Part shown: positions 37,036 to 44,492 of the stretch, one piece after another
Layout: every line of letters begins with the position of its first letter
How positions within the stretch are numbered: the stretch's first letter is position 1
Assembly: GCA_947501325.1 (NCBI GenBank)
Contig: CANMVC010000001.1
Span: 1 to 64,000, forward strand
Reading direction: 5' to 3'
Source of the DNA: an uncultured Sphingomonadaceae bacterium
GTDB taxonomy: Bacteria > Pseudomonadota > Alphaproteobacteria > Sphingomonadales > Sphingomonadaceae
DNA: 64,000 nucleotides
Notes under the pieces: generated by a model
The model's database searches: none
What the model was told of the DNA's origin: nothing
Seen by the model: only the letters and a program-made list of their open reading frames with translations
Made by a program: the position numbers and the translations under genes

Positions 37036-37404
37036 TTAAAGAGTATAGGGAACGCGAATGCCTGGCATTTCCGCCGGAAAATCGCGCGTGTTTCGTGTGA
37101 TCAAGATGCGCCCGGTAAGCTGGGCCGAGGCAAGAATGACGGCATCCATGGTTTTCAGCCGGCGCCGGTCGCTGCGCAGCAGAGCAGCACGCCGACCGAT
37201 TTCCTCATTAACTTCAATGACATTGAAAAAGGAGAGAAACGCCTCCGCCCGGTCGCCGTCGTCCGGCAGCGCACGCGTCAGCACTTCAACCCAGGTCAGG
37301 CGGCTAATATAGCGGCGGTCATAACGCTGCAGCTCGACATTGGCGCGGCCAACATCGTTAAGCGCGTCGAACAGGATGTTGCTGTCGAATACCGCTTCGT
37401 TCAC
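37036..37404 (-). CDS. PIN-domain toxin, VapC-like
   Basis: A 122-residue PIN-domain protein, predicted to be an RNase toxin. The first acidic residue is in VFDSNILFDAL (about residue 7), with further acidic residues in LTWVEVLTRAL, LKTMDAVILASAQ and ITRNTRDFP, which fits the VapC active site. It follows its antitoxin with an ATGA overlap. The pair lies between two essential cell-wall precursor genes, 18 bases from glmS. Known VapC toxins cut tRNA or rRNA; the target here is unknown. Confidence 0.88.
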   Translation of the reverse strand: MNEAVFDSNILFDALNDVGRANVELQRYDRRYISRLTWVEVLTRALPDDGDRAEAFLSFFNVIEVNEEIGRRAALLRSDRRRLKTMDAVILASAQLTGRILITRNTRDFPAEMPGIRVPYTL

Positions 37405-37733
37405 GAGGCGCCCTTCTGGCGATAGCGCTCAGCCTCGCGGTCATCATCGGCGTCGAAAAGGTCTGGAAATTCCTTGCGCACGTCCCAGTAATCAGGATCC
37501 CAGGGCCGCGTCCACGACGCCCGCTCGCGCCGCTGCCAAGCAACCGGGTCGCCGACATCGCGGCGGTCGCGCCAGATGCCGAAATATTTTTCGATCCCCT
37601 GCTTCGACGCATCCGCCCGAAACGCCGCCACCGCGTCACGAAGCAATTGCGCCCGCGAAGTCCCCTGCGCAGCCGCCTGCGTGTCGAGCCACTGGACATC
37701 TTCTTCGGATAGATCGGCAAGTATGCGAGTCAT
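37401..37733 (-). CDS. VapB-like antitoxin with ribbon-helix-helix domain
   Basis: A 110-residue protein. Its N-terminal ~45 residues (MTRILADLSEEDVQWLDTQA and onward to RAQLLRDAVAAFRA) look like a ribbon-helix-helix DNA-binding domain. The C-terminal half is charged and rich in Trp and Arg, as expected for the part that binds and blocks the toxin. It overlaps the toxin gene by four bases. An AT-rich palindromic region covers its start, as for autoregulated pairs. The tail is longer than in minimal RHH antitoxins. Confidence 0.83.
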   Translation of the reverse strand: MTRILADLSEEDVQWLDTQAAAQGTSRAQLLRDAVAAFRADASKQGIEKYFGIWRDRRDVGDPVAWQRRERASWTRPWDPDYWDVRKEFPDLFDADDDREAERYRQKGAS

Positions 37734-40269: not shown

Positions 40270-41289
40270 CTAAGTATTACGCCACTTTGTCCATAAATGG
40301 CCCGCCAGCATAAGCGGCGGCATTCTGAGCCAATGAGAGCGAATATAGAAGGCTTGCCGTGTGAACTTTCGGGTTTCTCGCCCCCAGCCATCACGCGCCA
40401 ACAGGCGGCGGATGTAAATATTGTCAGCAAAGATCGCAGGGCCACCATATGCTTTGTCGACGGGTGTATCATATAGCTGCGCTGCCAGTCTTAGCGCCCG
40501 TGCGATATGCCGTTCCAACCCGTGCAATTTGGCCCGCTTGCCCAATTCCATCCAGAACTCGCCATCAGCCTGAGAAAATTGCCGGACCAGCCGGTCAATA
40601 TCCCACAAGTTCCGAAGCCCCCCTGCCAGATCACCATCGGCAAACAGATGCGCGATTGAATGAAGCAGCATATCGGCCGGAGCCATAACATAGAGGCCCG
40701 AATCCAGTTTTATTGCGGCATCAAGCATCGCTTGCGCATTTGGTGTGGGTTTGGCGGTTAACGGCAATATCGTATGATGCACATCGATCATCCGGTCGCG
40801 TTCGCGGTGAATCAGCGGTGGCAATTCGTGCATATGCTCGCGATAATATTCATCATCATAAGGATCAGGCTTTACCCATTCCCATCCGGCATCGAGCAAA
40901 GCCTTTTCAACCGCGGGTAACTGCGCGCGATCAACCATAATATCCAGATCACCAATGCTCCGTCCGATCCCGGCATCACAATCGGCCGCAACATAGGCTG
41001 TGCCTTTCATCAAGATGGTCTTGCAATTAAGCGGCACAAGCGCTCGCCGCGCGCAATCTGCCTCCCAAAGCGCTTGTAACCGCGCAAGATCGGTGGCTTG
41101 AATCGCATCGTCCAAAACGGGTTTAATTACTTCCGGTACAGCAACATTTGCCAAACGGTGGGCCAGACTGCCGATGAGAGACTCTGCCCGGGCAATGCTG
41201 ATCAGGTCAGTCCACCCTGCCCCGTCAAGCGAGAGGACAGTTTCGGGTTCGCGCAACGCATCGACCAGCGGCTGAGCATTTCGCATCAT
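40270..41289 (-). CDS. Nucleotidyltransferase of the HPr-rel-A locus
   Basis: A 339-residue protein of the large uncharacterised nucleotidyltransferase family (NTP_transf_5-like). The core is LMKGTAY near residue 93 and GIGRSIGDLDIMVD at 107-120, where Asp114 and Asp116 would bind metal and nucleotide. A helical C-terminal region of about 200 residues follows. ATG 41289 overlaps the kinase stop by four bases, so it is coupled to the kinase. It would transfer a nucleotide or use one as donor on an unknown target. It is the last gene of the locus. Confidence 0.85.
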   Translation of the reverse strand: MMRNAQPLVDALREPETVLSLDGAGWTDLISIARAESLIGSLAHRLANVAVPEVIKPVLDDAIQATDLARLQALWEADCARRALVPLNCKTILMKGTAYVAADCDAGIGRSIGDLDIMVDRAQLPAVEKALLDAGWEWVKPDPYDDEYYREHMHELPPLIHRERDRMIDVHHTILPLTAKPTPNAQAMLDAAIKLDSGLYVMAPADMLLHSIAHLFADGDLAGGLRNLWDIDRLVRQFSQADGEFWMELGKRAKLHGLERHIARALRLAAQLYDTPVDKAYGGPAIFADNIYIRRLLARDGWGRETRKFTRQAFYIRSHWLRMPPLMLAGHLWTKWRNT

Positions 41290-42155
41290 GGGAGCTTGCT
41301 CCACAAACTGTCGATCATTTCTTCGGCCTGCTCACCCGATTGATAGTCCATCGCCTTGGTTGGAACCGTATCGACAAATCTTGTGAGCGCCCGAAAGCCT
41401 GTCTCGCCCAGAGCCACATAATTGGTTGAAGCCTGCGTCAGGCGCACAAAAACCTCGCTCTTCCCCATATCGCGCAGAACCGGGTCATAACCGAAGCGGG
41501 GAAACAGCAATAAGGCTGGCTTGGCAGTTTCCTTCATCCGGTTCACTGCGTTCAACGGCGGAATGATATGACGAATATCACCTTTAGGCGTCCCCTTCAT
41601 CATGGGACCGAAACGGTTTATTGGCAGAATCGCTTGCATCGCCGCGATTGCCTCATTTTTAAGGCTGATTAGGCGCGGAAAGCTATGCACCATGCCGGTG
41701 TCCGGATTGAGCAAAGCAAATTCATCACCCATGAAGCGCCAGCCTTTTTCGGCGAGCATGGCGGAAAGCGTCGATTTTCCGGAACCGGACAACCCGGTCA
41801 TTAGCAAAGCCTTCCCGTCTTTTTCGACACTGCTGGCATGTAACAACAAATGCCGTCGCCACCCCAGAGCCATTTGCAGATTCATACCCATTTCGGCTGC
41901 TAACAGACTTTGGCTTAGCGGCAGTGGTGCTGCATCGGGCAGCCAATAGTCACCCGAGATATGCACCGATGGCCGGACAAAGCGCCGCCATGGCTTTTCC
42001 GGCTCCAATCGGACCGTAAAGTCTGCGTAATCGTCGTACGAAGCAGGATAGGTCTTATACAGCGAAGCCAACTGATCCAAAGGTTCTTGCCATGACGACG
42101 CTAGTCGAAATCTTGCTGGGCCAACGGTCAAAAAAAGATGATTAAGCCCGTTCAC
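41286..42155 (-). CDS. HprK-related kinase A
   Basis: A 289-residue protein whose C-terminal half resembles HPr kinase/phosphorylase. A family-like HASSVEKDGKALLMTG strand leads to the P-loop GLSGSGKS at residues 121-128, and MGDEFALL at 142-149 fits the Walker B/catalytic region. The N-terminal ~100 residues are specific to this group. No HPr or PTS gene lies nearby, so the substrate is probably not HPr. It is coupled to the PqqD-like gene before it and the nucleotidyltransferase after it by ATGA overlaps. Confidence 0.87.
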   Translation of the reverse strand: MNGLNHLFLTVGPARFRLASSWQEPLDQLASLYKTYPASYDDYADFTVRLEPEKPWRRFVRPSVHISGDYWLPDAAPLPLSQSLLAAEMGMNLQMALGWRRHLLLHASSVEKDGKALLMTGLSGSGKSTLSAMLAEKGWRFMGDEFALLNPDTGMVHSFPRLISLKNEAIAAMQAILPINRFGPMMKGTPKGDIRHIIPPLNAVNRMKETAKPALLLFPRFGYDPVLRDMGKSEVFVRLTQASTNYVALGETGFRALTRFVDTVPTKAMDYQSGEQAEEMIDSLWSKLP

Positions 42156-42439
42156 CCGCCGTCAACCTGTTCGACAAGACCGAGCGAGCATAGTTCAACC
42201 AACCGAGCTAGCACGATATCGGCTGCATCCGCGCTTTCTTCCAAATCAAAACCAGCGGAAAGCCGGTGAGTTATTGCATCGGCAGTCACCGTGTCTTCAG
42301 CCATAACCTCTAATATCGCTGGCACGGGATCTGCGACGATGTGCGTGATACCCGACGATTTTTGAAAAATCAGCGTCATGCTATCCAGCGGATGCTGAAT
42401 CAGCTTGTTGGGGGTTGCGGCTCGGTAAAGCTGGCTCAT
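42152..42439 (-). CDS. HPr-rel-A system PqqD-family peptide chaperone
   Basis: A 95-residue protein of the PqqD-like winged-helix type, which in other pathways binds the leader of a ribosomal peptide and presents it to a modifying enzyme. Typical parts are the N-terminal strand pair with MTLIFQKSSGITHIVADP and the helical LVELCSLGLVEQVDGG end. The start is ATG 42439. It is the first gene of the coupled three-gene set. No PQQ biosynthesis gene is nearby, so a role in PQQ is unlikely. Confidence 0.82.
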   Translation of the reverse strand: MSQLYRAATPNKLIQHPLDSMTLIFQKSSGITHIVADPVPAILEVMAEDTVTADAITHRLSAGFDLEESADAADIVLARLVELCSLGLVEQVDGG

Positions 42440-42543
42440 CGTCGGTTACATTATTCCTGATCAAGGCAAGTTATTCAAATCAAGCCGTTACCATGAATAT
42501 GTTAATAACCATTAGTCCTGAGGACTGAAAATCAGCGTATTGG

Positions 42544-42972
42544 CTAACGCGGCATTTGGAGGGAAGCGTAGCACGTAAAACCGCTCTGTCCGGATTGCAG
42601 CCTGCGAATGTAGTTCACATAGGCTTTAGACTGGTCGTAGGAAGTGCCAGGCAGTGACCGGCCATTCATCGCGCGTTTCACTTCTTCGCCAGTGAAATTG
42701 CGACCTGCTGGTGGAAAAGCACCGGGTGTATCGGGAGATACTATTTTCCCATCGGGTCCTATATACCCACCAGCCGCATGGTTACCCGGAACCGGAATCT
42801 CGCAATTCAGAACGGAACCGGCCGTTTGCGCCAGCGCAGGCTTAATACTAACCACAGCAGAAGCCGTCACGGCACCCATCATCAAGGCGCGACGGCGTGT
42901 TACATTAGAAGGGTTCTCAGAATTTCGAGTGGATTCGGAAAGTCCATCATTTAGGTTTGAGTTGTCCGTCAT
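42544..42972 (-). CDS. Small Tat-exported protein, possible partner of the HPr-rel-A genes
   Basis: A 142-residue protein with a twin-arginine signal (RRR at 26-28, then ALMMGAVTASAVVSIKPALA, cleavage after residue 48). The mature ~94 residues hold exactly two cysteines, Cys57 near the new N-terminus and Cys134 near the C-terminus, and are rich in Gly and Pro. I recognise no enzyme family. A Tat signal implies export after folding or after cytosolic modification. The gene lies 104 bases upstream of the PqqD-kinase-nucleotidyltransferase set on the same strand. It is the obvious candidate substrate, but this is inference. Confidence 0.7.
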   Translation of the reverse strand: MTDNSNLNDGLSESTRNSENPSNVTRRRALMMGAVTASAVVSIKPALAQTAGSVLNCEIPVPGNHAAGGYIGPDGKIVSPDTPGAFPPAGRNFTGEEVKRAMNGRSLPGTSYDQSKAYVNYIRRLQSGQSGFTCYASLQMPR

Positions 42973-44463: not shown

Positions 44464-44492
44464 TTGTCATATATCTGTCATAAATGTGTAAC
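44464..44492 (+). promoter_or_regulatory. PHO box upstream of pstS
   Basis: Direct repeats with an 11-base period: TTGTCAT (44464), CTGTCAT (44475) and the weaker GTGTAAC (44486), with AT-rich spacers. The middle repeat matches the PhoB-binding consensus CTGTCAT exactly. It lies about 105 bases before the pstS ATG, so pstSCAB-phoU-phoB should be switched on by phosphate starvation. Confidence 0.88.

Follow-up and report, generated by a model that had tools for sequence, protein, structure and literature searches.

The window analysed here is the whole stretch of 64,000 nucleotides (positions 1 to 64,000 of the forward strand) of contig CANMVC010000001.1, assembly GCA_947501325.1, from an uncultured Sphingomonadaceae bacterium. 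It carries an HPr-rel-A cassette in which genes for a PqqD-like protein, an HprK-related kinase and a nucleotidyltransferase follow a gene for a small protein with a twin-arginine translocation (Tat) signal (Table 1). The four genes proposed by an earlier sequence-only reading were all found at their coordinates, on the minus strand. The motifs it had named, GLSGSGKS in the kinase and GDLDIMVD in the nucleotidyltransferase, were present in the open reading frames (ORFs), and the protein encoded 104 bases upstream has the claimed 142 residues and two cysteines; the 104 bp gap separates the end of the Tat gene from the start of the PqqD-like gene. The three downstream genes had been described as joined by ATGA overlaps. 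This is correct for the kinase and transferase genes; the overlap of the PqqD-like and kinase genes is GTGA.

Table 1. Features of the HPr-rel-A cassette in the window
Feature	Position	Strand	Basis
Tat-signal precursor protein, candidate substrate, 142 aa, two Cys	42544..42972	-	ORF
Leader of the Tat protein (residues 1-48): 25-residue n-region, twin arginine, h-region, AxA	42829..42972	-	sequence
Ser53 of S-x3-C, candidate phospho-acceptor a little past the predicted signal peptidase site	42814..42816	-	invariant in profile A1
C134-x-x-S137 motif at the C-terminus, second candidate acceptor	42562..42573	-	invariant in profile A1
PqqD-like RiPP recognition element protein, TIGR04353, 95 aa	42152..42439	-	ORF and NCBIfam
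HprK-related kinase A, TIGR04352, 289 aa, GTG start	41286..42155	-	ORF and NCBIfam
Kinase P-loop GLSGSGKST including K127	41769..41795	-	sequence, alignment
Nucleotidyltransferase, PF14907 NTP_transf_5, 339 aa, GDLDIMVD	40270..41289	-	ORF and Pfam

The kinase scored 240.9 bits against TIGR04352 (cut-off 200; HprK-related kinase A) and 19.9 bits against TIGR00679, the HPr kinase/phosphorylase family, below the cut-off of 240. The PqqD-like protein scored 52.1 bits against TIGR04353 (cut-off 35; PqqD_rel_X), and the transferase 164.2 bits against PF14907 (cut-off 31.2). The cassette resembles the HPr-rel-A system of NCBIfam in that the kinase and the PqqD-like protein pass both curated cut-offs. 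It differs in its Tat protein, for which searches of NCBIfam and Pfam gave no match at E <= 0.1. By its twin arginine, hydrophobic region and AxA this protein has the sequence features of a putative Tat substrate, and TatC is encoded in the same genome.

Distribution of the Tat protein and gene order

Two samples were searched, comprising 149 genomes of the Sphingomonadaceae (the family of the window) and 398 genomes of the phylum. The kinase exceeded the TIGR04352 cut-off in 45 of the 149 family genomes. With the window Tat protein as the query, matches were obtained in 42 genomes, all within these 45. A profile (A1) was built from the Tat proteins of 39 of the 45 genomes. Six were excluded: in L062, L091 and L092 the Tat gene lies elsewhere, L078 is at a contig end, the signal region of L095 is unreadable and the frame of L105 is broken. 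A1 matched 46 of the 149 genomes, namely all 45 kinase genomes and G017, whose match was rejected as a Sec-signal protein without a twin arginine. The Tat protein was present in 45/45 kinase genomes and truly in none of the 104 kinase-free family genomes (one false match), with a Fisher p of approximately 1e-37 to 1e-39 when kinship of the genomes is ignored. A Tat protein mostly absent from such loci and present where the other genes are lacking had been named by the sequence-only reading as the pattern that would undo its proposal; the reverse was obtained. Presence of the Tat protein also followed that of the kinase in four of four genera with one kinase-positive and one kinase-negative member (g22, g36, g51, g69).

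At the level of the order, 79 of 147 sampled genomes had the kinase over its cut-off, as did 61 of the 398 phylum genomes (12 from the window's family, 1 from the rest of the order, 0 from the rest of the class and 48 from the rest of the phylum). A second profile (A2) comprised 17 of 28 Tat proteins of class A (defined below) from outside the family, 8/8 from beta/gammaproteobacterial loci and 9/20 from the order. It matched 42 of the 398 genomes, and 41 of these were kinase genomes. The remaining match, in G262, belongs to a divergent cassette (L222), where a kinase of 61 bits, a weakly PqqD-like protein (E 0.0027), a transferase and a protein with a twin-arginine signal are encoded within approximately 4 kb. 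The 20 kinase genomes without an A2 match were Sphingomonadaceae (partly covered by A1), class B lineages and G332.

How often a small Tat protein lies close to the kinase, a count proposed by the earlier reading, was determined in three sets of loci. The best 80 of at least 581 relatives found with the transferase alignment formed a set of named Sphingomonadales loci. Seventy-seven of these, Sphingomonas echinoides ATCC 14820 (L273) among them, had the complete cassette, with every gene on the same strand and in the order Tat, PqqD, kinase, transferase; L240 and L289 were cut by contig ends, and L250 had no Tat gene at the locus. Because the same strand and order recur in 77 of 80 loci, the four-gene arrangement is not due to chance. 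Loci from other families of the order had a Tat gene in 20/20 cases, with two copies in three (L189, L198, L200). The third set consisted of 20 fetched loci, of 48 found, from genomes of the same phylum outside the window's class, labelled beta/gammaproteobacterial on their gene content. A protein with a twin-arginine signal was encoded upstream within 1.5 kb in 19/20, a count to be read alongside position and order since the loose twin-arginine rule was also met in 121 of 669 control stretches. The exception was L174 (G228), with the protein on another contig.

Seven kinase genomes carried a displaced Tat gene (G040, G042, G122, G170, G216, G228, G271), which adjoined a PqqD-like gene in four (G040, G170, G216, G271). 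Alone in the family sample, the kinase locus of G040 has neither a Tat nor a PqqD-like gene, and both adjoin each other on another contig. G328 has an additional Tat-PqqD pair beyond a complete cassette; in G316 the kinase and the Tat-profile match lie on separate small contigs. The link of the Tat protein to the PqqD-like, kinase and transferase genes is strongly supported by these observations.

Conserved residues and predicted folds

Tat proteins were divided into two classes. Of 85 inspected loci, 68 gave class A proteins; the others were 11 with class B proteins (from some beta/gammaproteobacteria), L095 and five in which no ORF had been picked. S-x(2,4)-C was found soon after the signal in 67/68 and [ST]CxxS at the C-terminus in 66/68. 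The misses were L105, a frame-broken gene, and L175, which is without both motif cysteines and keeps the last serine. Both motifs were present in 77/77 Tat proteins of the named set. Residues R27, L30, P45, A48, S53, C57, G75, A117, G131, C134 and S137 were invariant in the 39 family sequences; in the 17 more distant sequences of A2 only the arginine pair, one leader proline and the C-terminal serine were. Among class B proteins, C[STN]x[STA]G was found in 6/11, and several (L168, L169, L173, L177, L178, L179, L182) have C-x(n)-[ST][PG]G-x-[WFV] after the first cysteine.

The n-region before the twin arginine had a median length of 21 residues (range 11-58; first-Met rule, 73 of 77 proteins). 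Profiles were compared with hhalign, A3 being the class B profile. Scores were 87.5 for A1-A2, 49.0 for A2-A3 and 30.5 for A1-A3. The control set (A7), ten further Tat-like proteins from the genome that contains the window, gave 25.5 (A1), 28.1 (A2) and 28.0 (A3); it is small and mostly weak, being 10 of 12 PF10518 matches at E <= 1 with one over the family cut-off. A1-A2 and A2-A3 could be aligned over the leader and first cysteine only, and A1-A3 was hardly above background. Judged by the A1-A2 and A2-A3 alignments, conservation of the leader goes further than in ordinary Tat signals.

Conservation of the mature domain is high within the 39 family sequences; in a ribosomally synthesised and post-translationally modified peptide (RiPP) a variable core would be expected. 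Its structure was predicted with a mean predicted local distance difference test (pLDDT) score above 90 for residue blocks 71-120 and of approximately 85 for 121-140, with C134 and S137 in the terminal helix. No solved structural relative of the Tat protein was found.

The model of the PqqD-like protein matched, by Foldseek, RiPP recognition elements (RREs) solved with leader peptides, and the protein has a predicted RRE fold. No residue was invariant in its family (24 sequences), G30, H33 and G87 being nearly so. As regards the cognate precursor that should be encoded with an RRE in a RiPP pathway, a candidate was present in 77/80 named loci.

H106, K127, D144 and E145 were kept in 85/85 kinase sequences. 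When the kinase region was aligned with HprK of 1ko7 and 1jb1, the P-loop and His-Lys-Asp fell at the same spacing, and the aligned positions are those we take to be the HprK catalytic residues. The kinase resembles HPr kinase/phosphorylase in these respects and differs from it in the low TIGR00679 score and in the last acidic residue, the fourth of the HprK His-Lys-Asp-Asp set being Glu in all 85 sequences. D114, D116 and D169 were invariant in 25 transferase sequences and are active-site candidates.

A second type of HprK-like kinase was seen beside a PF14907 transferase in L347-L350 (G102, G073, G107, G143), at 47-69 bits and so under the TIGR04352 cut-off. No Tat-profile match was found near these four kinases. 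In L347 a weakly PqqD-like protein of 261 aa adjoins a protein of 606 aa; neither matches NCBIfam at E <= 1e-6.

Neighbouring genes

Three flanking proteins of the window cassette were scanned with NCBIfam and Pfam and were PhoR-like, phosphoglycolate phosphatase-like and PstS-like. The earlier statement that no HPr, phosphotransferase system or pyrroloquinoline quinone gene lies nearby holds for these three proteins, where it was checked. The Sphingomonadales cassettes sit near the phosphate regulon and gph-glmU-glmS. Within limited flanks of 144 loci, a PhoR-like protein was encoded in 125, Gph in 104 and GlmU in 109; these loci are not all independent, as the 80 named loci overlap the sampled genomes (e.g. 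L244/G074) and some genomes occur twice. Among 30 genomes without the cassette (1.5 kb of flank visible), a PhoR-like gene was the immediate neighbour of gph or glmU in 5, as expected for a clean absence.

Beta/gammaproteobacterial neighbours were scanned as two sets of 10 proteins from 14 of the 20 loci. Proteins of the XrtA/PEP-CTERM system scored over their cut-offs beside 10 of the 14; none was found among the tested neighbours of L173, L180, L182 and L184. An XrtA amidotransferase gene follows the transferase gene in L167, L170, L172 and L176. A lasso cyclase was considered for these Asn-synthetase-like neighbours and rejected, as they score over the XrtA amidotransferase cut-off and under that for lasso cyclase. 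Exosortase was present in 124/149 family genomes, too many for a dependence between the two systems to be read there.

Two further observations were made in the window. A Pho-box-like direct repeat, TTGTCAT-N4-CTGTCAT, lies at 44464-44481 (+) between phoR and pstS; inspection by eye showed no such repeat between phoR and the Tat gene. At 37036-37733 (-), beside glmS, a PIN-domain-like ORF overlaps an upstream ribbon-helix-helix-like ORF and was judged by eye to be a VapBC-like toxin-antitoxin candidate.

Proposed pathway, related systems and alternatives

We read HPr-rel-A, with moderate confidence, as a four-gene, RiPP-like module for protein modification and export, with a role outside the cytoplasm. 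The PqqD-like protein, a discrete RRE, would bind the preprotein by its long conserved leader, which is the region of the Tat signal, and present it to the HprK-like kinase. The kinase would phosphorylate an invariant serine with a nucleoside triphosphate (NTP), either Ser137 of the C-terminal CxxS or Ser53, which lies just beyond the predicted signal peptidase cut. The PF14907 transferase may then put a nucleotide or sugar onto the phosphate, a step modelled on PsmN of pseudomycoidin (PMC9266682). The folded product would leave via Tat, ordinary signal peptidase I would remove the leader, and the modified protein may act outside the cytoplasm, possibly with exopolysaccharide. Modification before export, suggested by the sequence-only reading, is the best reading because of the predicted RRE fold and the retained HprK catalytic residues. 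The suggestion is partly supported, by these two features and by the Tat-protein link; the chemistry itself we infer.

The closest working model is the linear polyphosphorylated peptide (LPP) system of Bacillota. As described by Popov et al. (2026; PMC13381572), the LPP set comprises an HprK-like kinase, a discrete RRE, an uncharacterised NTP-transferase and a precursor, and it lacks a cyclase. Ser3, three residues past the leader cut, carries several phosphates; deletion of the transferase LppN had no detectable effect, and the clusters sit within capsule polysaccharide loci. The window cassette likewise combines HprK-like kinase, discrete RRE and NTP-transferase, Ser53 resembles LPP Ser3, and the capsule loci are paralleled by the XrtA exopolysaccharide genes beside HPr-rel-A in 10 of the 14 beta/gammaproteobacterial loci scanned. 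HPr-rel-A differs in occurring in Pseudomonadota, and its candidate precursor is a Tat preprotein whose mature domain is predicted to be folded. Neither an LppS-like SpI-type peptidase nor an LppD/MsbA-like exporter was found in the window cassette or the three flanking proteins scanned, and the window leader has no YxxP-type motif. On these window features (peptidase, transporter, YxxP motif) LPP was rejected as a family label.

The phosphorylated lasso peptides paeninodin and pseudomycoidin (PMC9266682) are also similar: in paeninodin the kinase target is the C-terminal Ser of the precursor, and in pseudomycoidin the transferase PsmN has been connected with hexoses carried by the phospho-Ser. 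A kinase acting on a precursor Ser, a transferase and an RRE protein are the common elements, and the modified C-terminal Ser in paeninodin is comparable to Ser137. In HPr-rel-A the substrate candidate is instead a 142-residue exported protein, and no lasso macrolactam cyclase or B2 peptidase was found in the window cassette with NCBIfam and Pfam. RREs of the DUF2063 type act with DUF2282 precursors bearing an export signal, as HPr-rel-A would (PMC12710340); that signal is Sec, and here it is Tat. The word kinase is absent from the main text of that paper.

Several points weigh against the proposed pathway. Chemistry, binding and export are read from sequences and models. The Foldseek matches of the RRE model stand at E 0.0045 or worse, the PqqD-like sequence profile matches TfuB1 at no better than E 0.08, and the window leader (residues 1-48) contains no Tyr or Trp and hence no [Y/W]xxP motif of the kind present in LPP and paeninodin leaders. 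The A1 and A3 leaders are not clearly related directly (probability 33%). C-terminal CxxS was found in 0/11 class B precursors, so no single acceptor fits every lineage. L250 has no Tat gene, which was looked for at the locus only, and no PqqD-like gene was found adjoining the displaced Tat genes of G042, G122 and G228; as a PqqD-like neighbour was seen in four of seven such genomes, confidence in the pathway is slightly reduced. The transferase step is weakly founded, because deletion of the LPP transferase changed nothing detectable.

Alternatively, the Tat protein might be an obligate partner and not a substrate, the target of the kinase and transferase being a glycan, a lipid carrier or a small molecule, and the PqqD-like and Tat proteins serving another step, e.g. 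polysaccharide assembly. The XrtA/PEP-CTERM exopolysaccharide-system proteins at 10 of 14 loci and the position of Sphingomonadales loci near glmU and glmS are consistent with this. We consider it unlikely, as leader conservation exceeds that of ordinary Tat signals, the solved structures closest to the PqqD-like protein bind leader peptides, and the Tat gene adjoins the PqqD-like gene in four of the seven genomes where it is parted from the kinase.

The long n-region, the Tat-PqqD gene pairing and the mature domain predicted to be folded would also suit a PqqD-like protein that is a Tat proofreading chaperone, delaying export of an unmodified cargo until folding and being regulated by the kinase and transferase. 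This is distinctly improbable: a conserved phospho-site was not seen on the PqqD-like family, none of whose residues is invariant across 24 sequences, and the HprK-like kinases encoded in lasso and LPP clusters target the precursor.

It is very unlikely that phosphorylation is an intermediate, with phospho- or nucleotidyl-Ser eliminated and Cys added to form lanthionine-like thioethers (S53-C57, C134-S137). Ser and Cys do lie 2-4 residues apart at both ends of nearly all class A proteins (67/68 and 66/68), and some lanthipeptide enzymes phosphorylate ahead of elimination, according to PMC10604976. NCBIfam and Pfam scans recognised no lyase or cyclase in the cassette, however, and L175 keeps the C-terminal Ser without both motif cysteines; a C57-C134 disulfide fits better. 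That the Tat gene stands there by chance and is retained through conserved gene order, as the conserved site near phoR-pst and gph-glmU (PhoR-like in 125 of 144 loci) might suggest, is scarcely credible: it is contradicted by the co-occurrence, by the displaced Tat genes of seven kinase genomes in the samples searched and by beta/gammaproteobacterial loci, which have different neighbours and still the twin-arginine protein.

The HPr-rel-A kinase and PqqD-like families have already been named as a system, which we regard as a probable variant of RRE-guided kinase pathways. Among the papers searched, none named the HPr-rel-A system or described a RiPP pathway that uses a Tat signal. As far as this literature shows, the constant partnership with the Tat protein and the probable role of its Tat signal as leader are both new. 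A Tat partner with two near-invariant candidate serines makes an orphan enzyme set testable, and HPr-rel-A offers a system with which the transferases of lasso and LPP clusters, themselves poorly understood, can be compared. More tentatively, and we hold this to be possible but doubtful, RRE-dependent phosphoproteins or phosphoglycoproteins may be widespread in Pseudomonadota, the Tat signal being the RRE-bound leader, folding and modification preceding export, and the modified form priming, anchoring or organising exopolysaccharide. If true, this would link RiPP biosynthesis with Tat export and with the XrtA/PEP-CTERM polysaccharide systems. In many Gram-negative bacteria there is a compact gene set whose small recognition protein, kinase and transferase appear to be made for modifying one partner protein ahead of its export through Tat.

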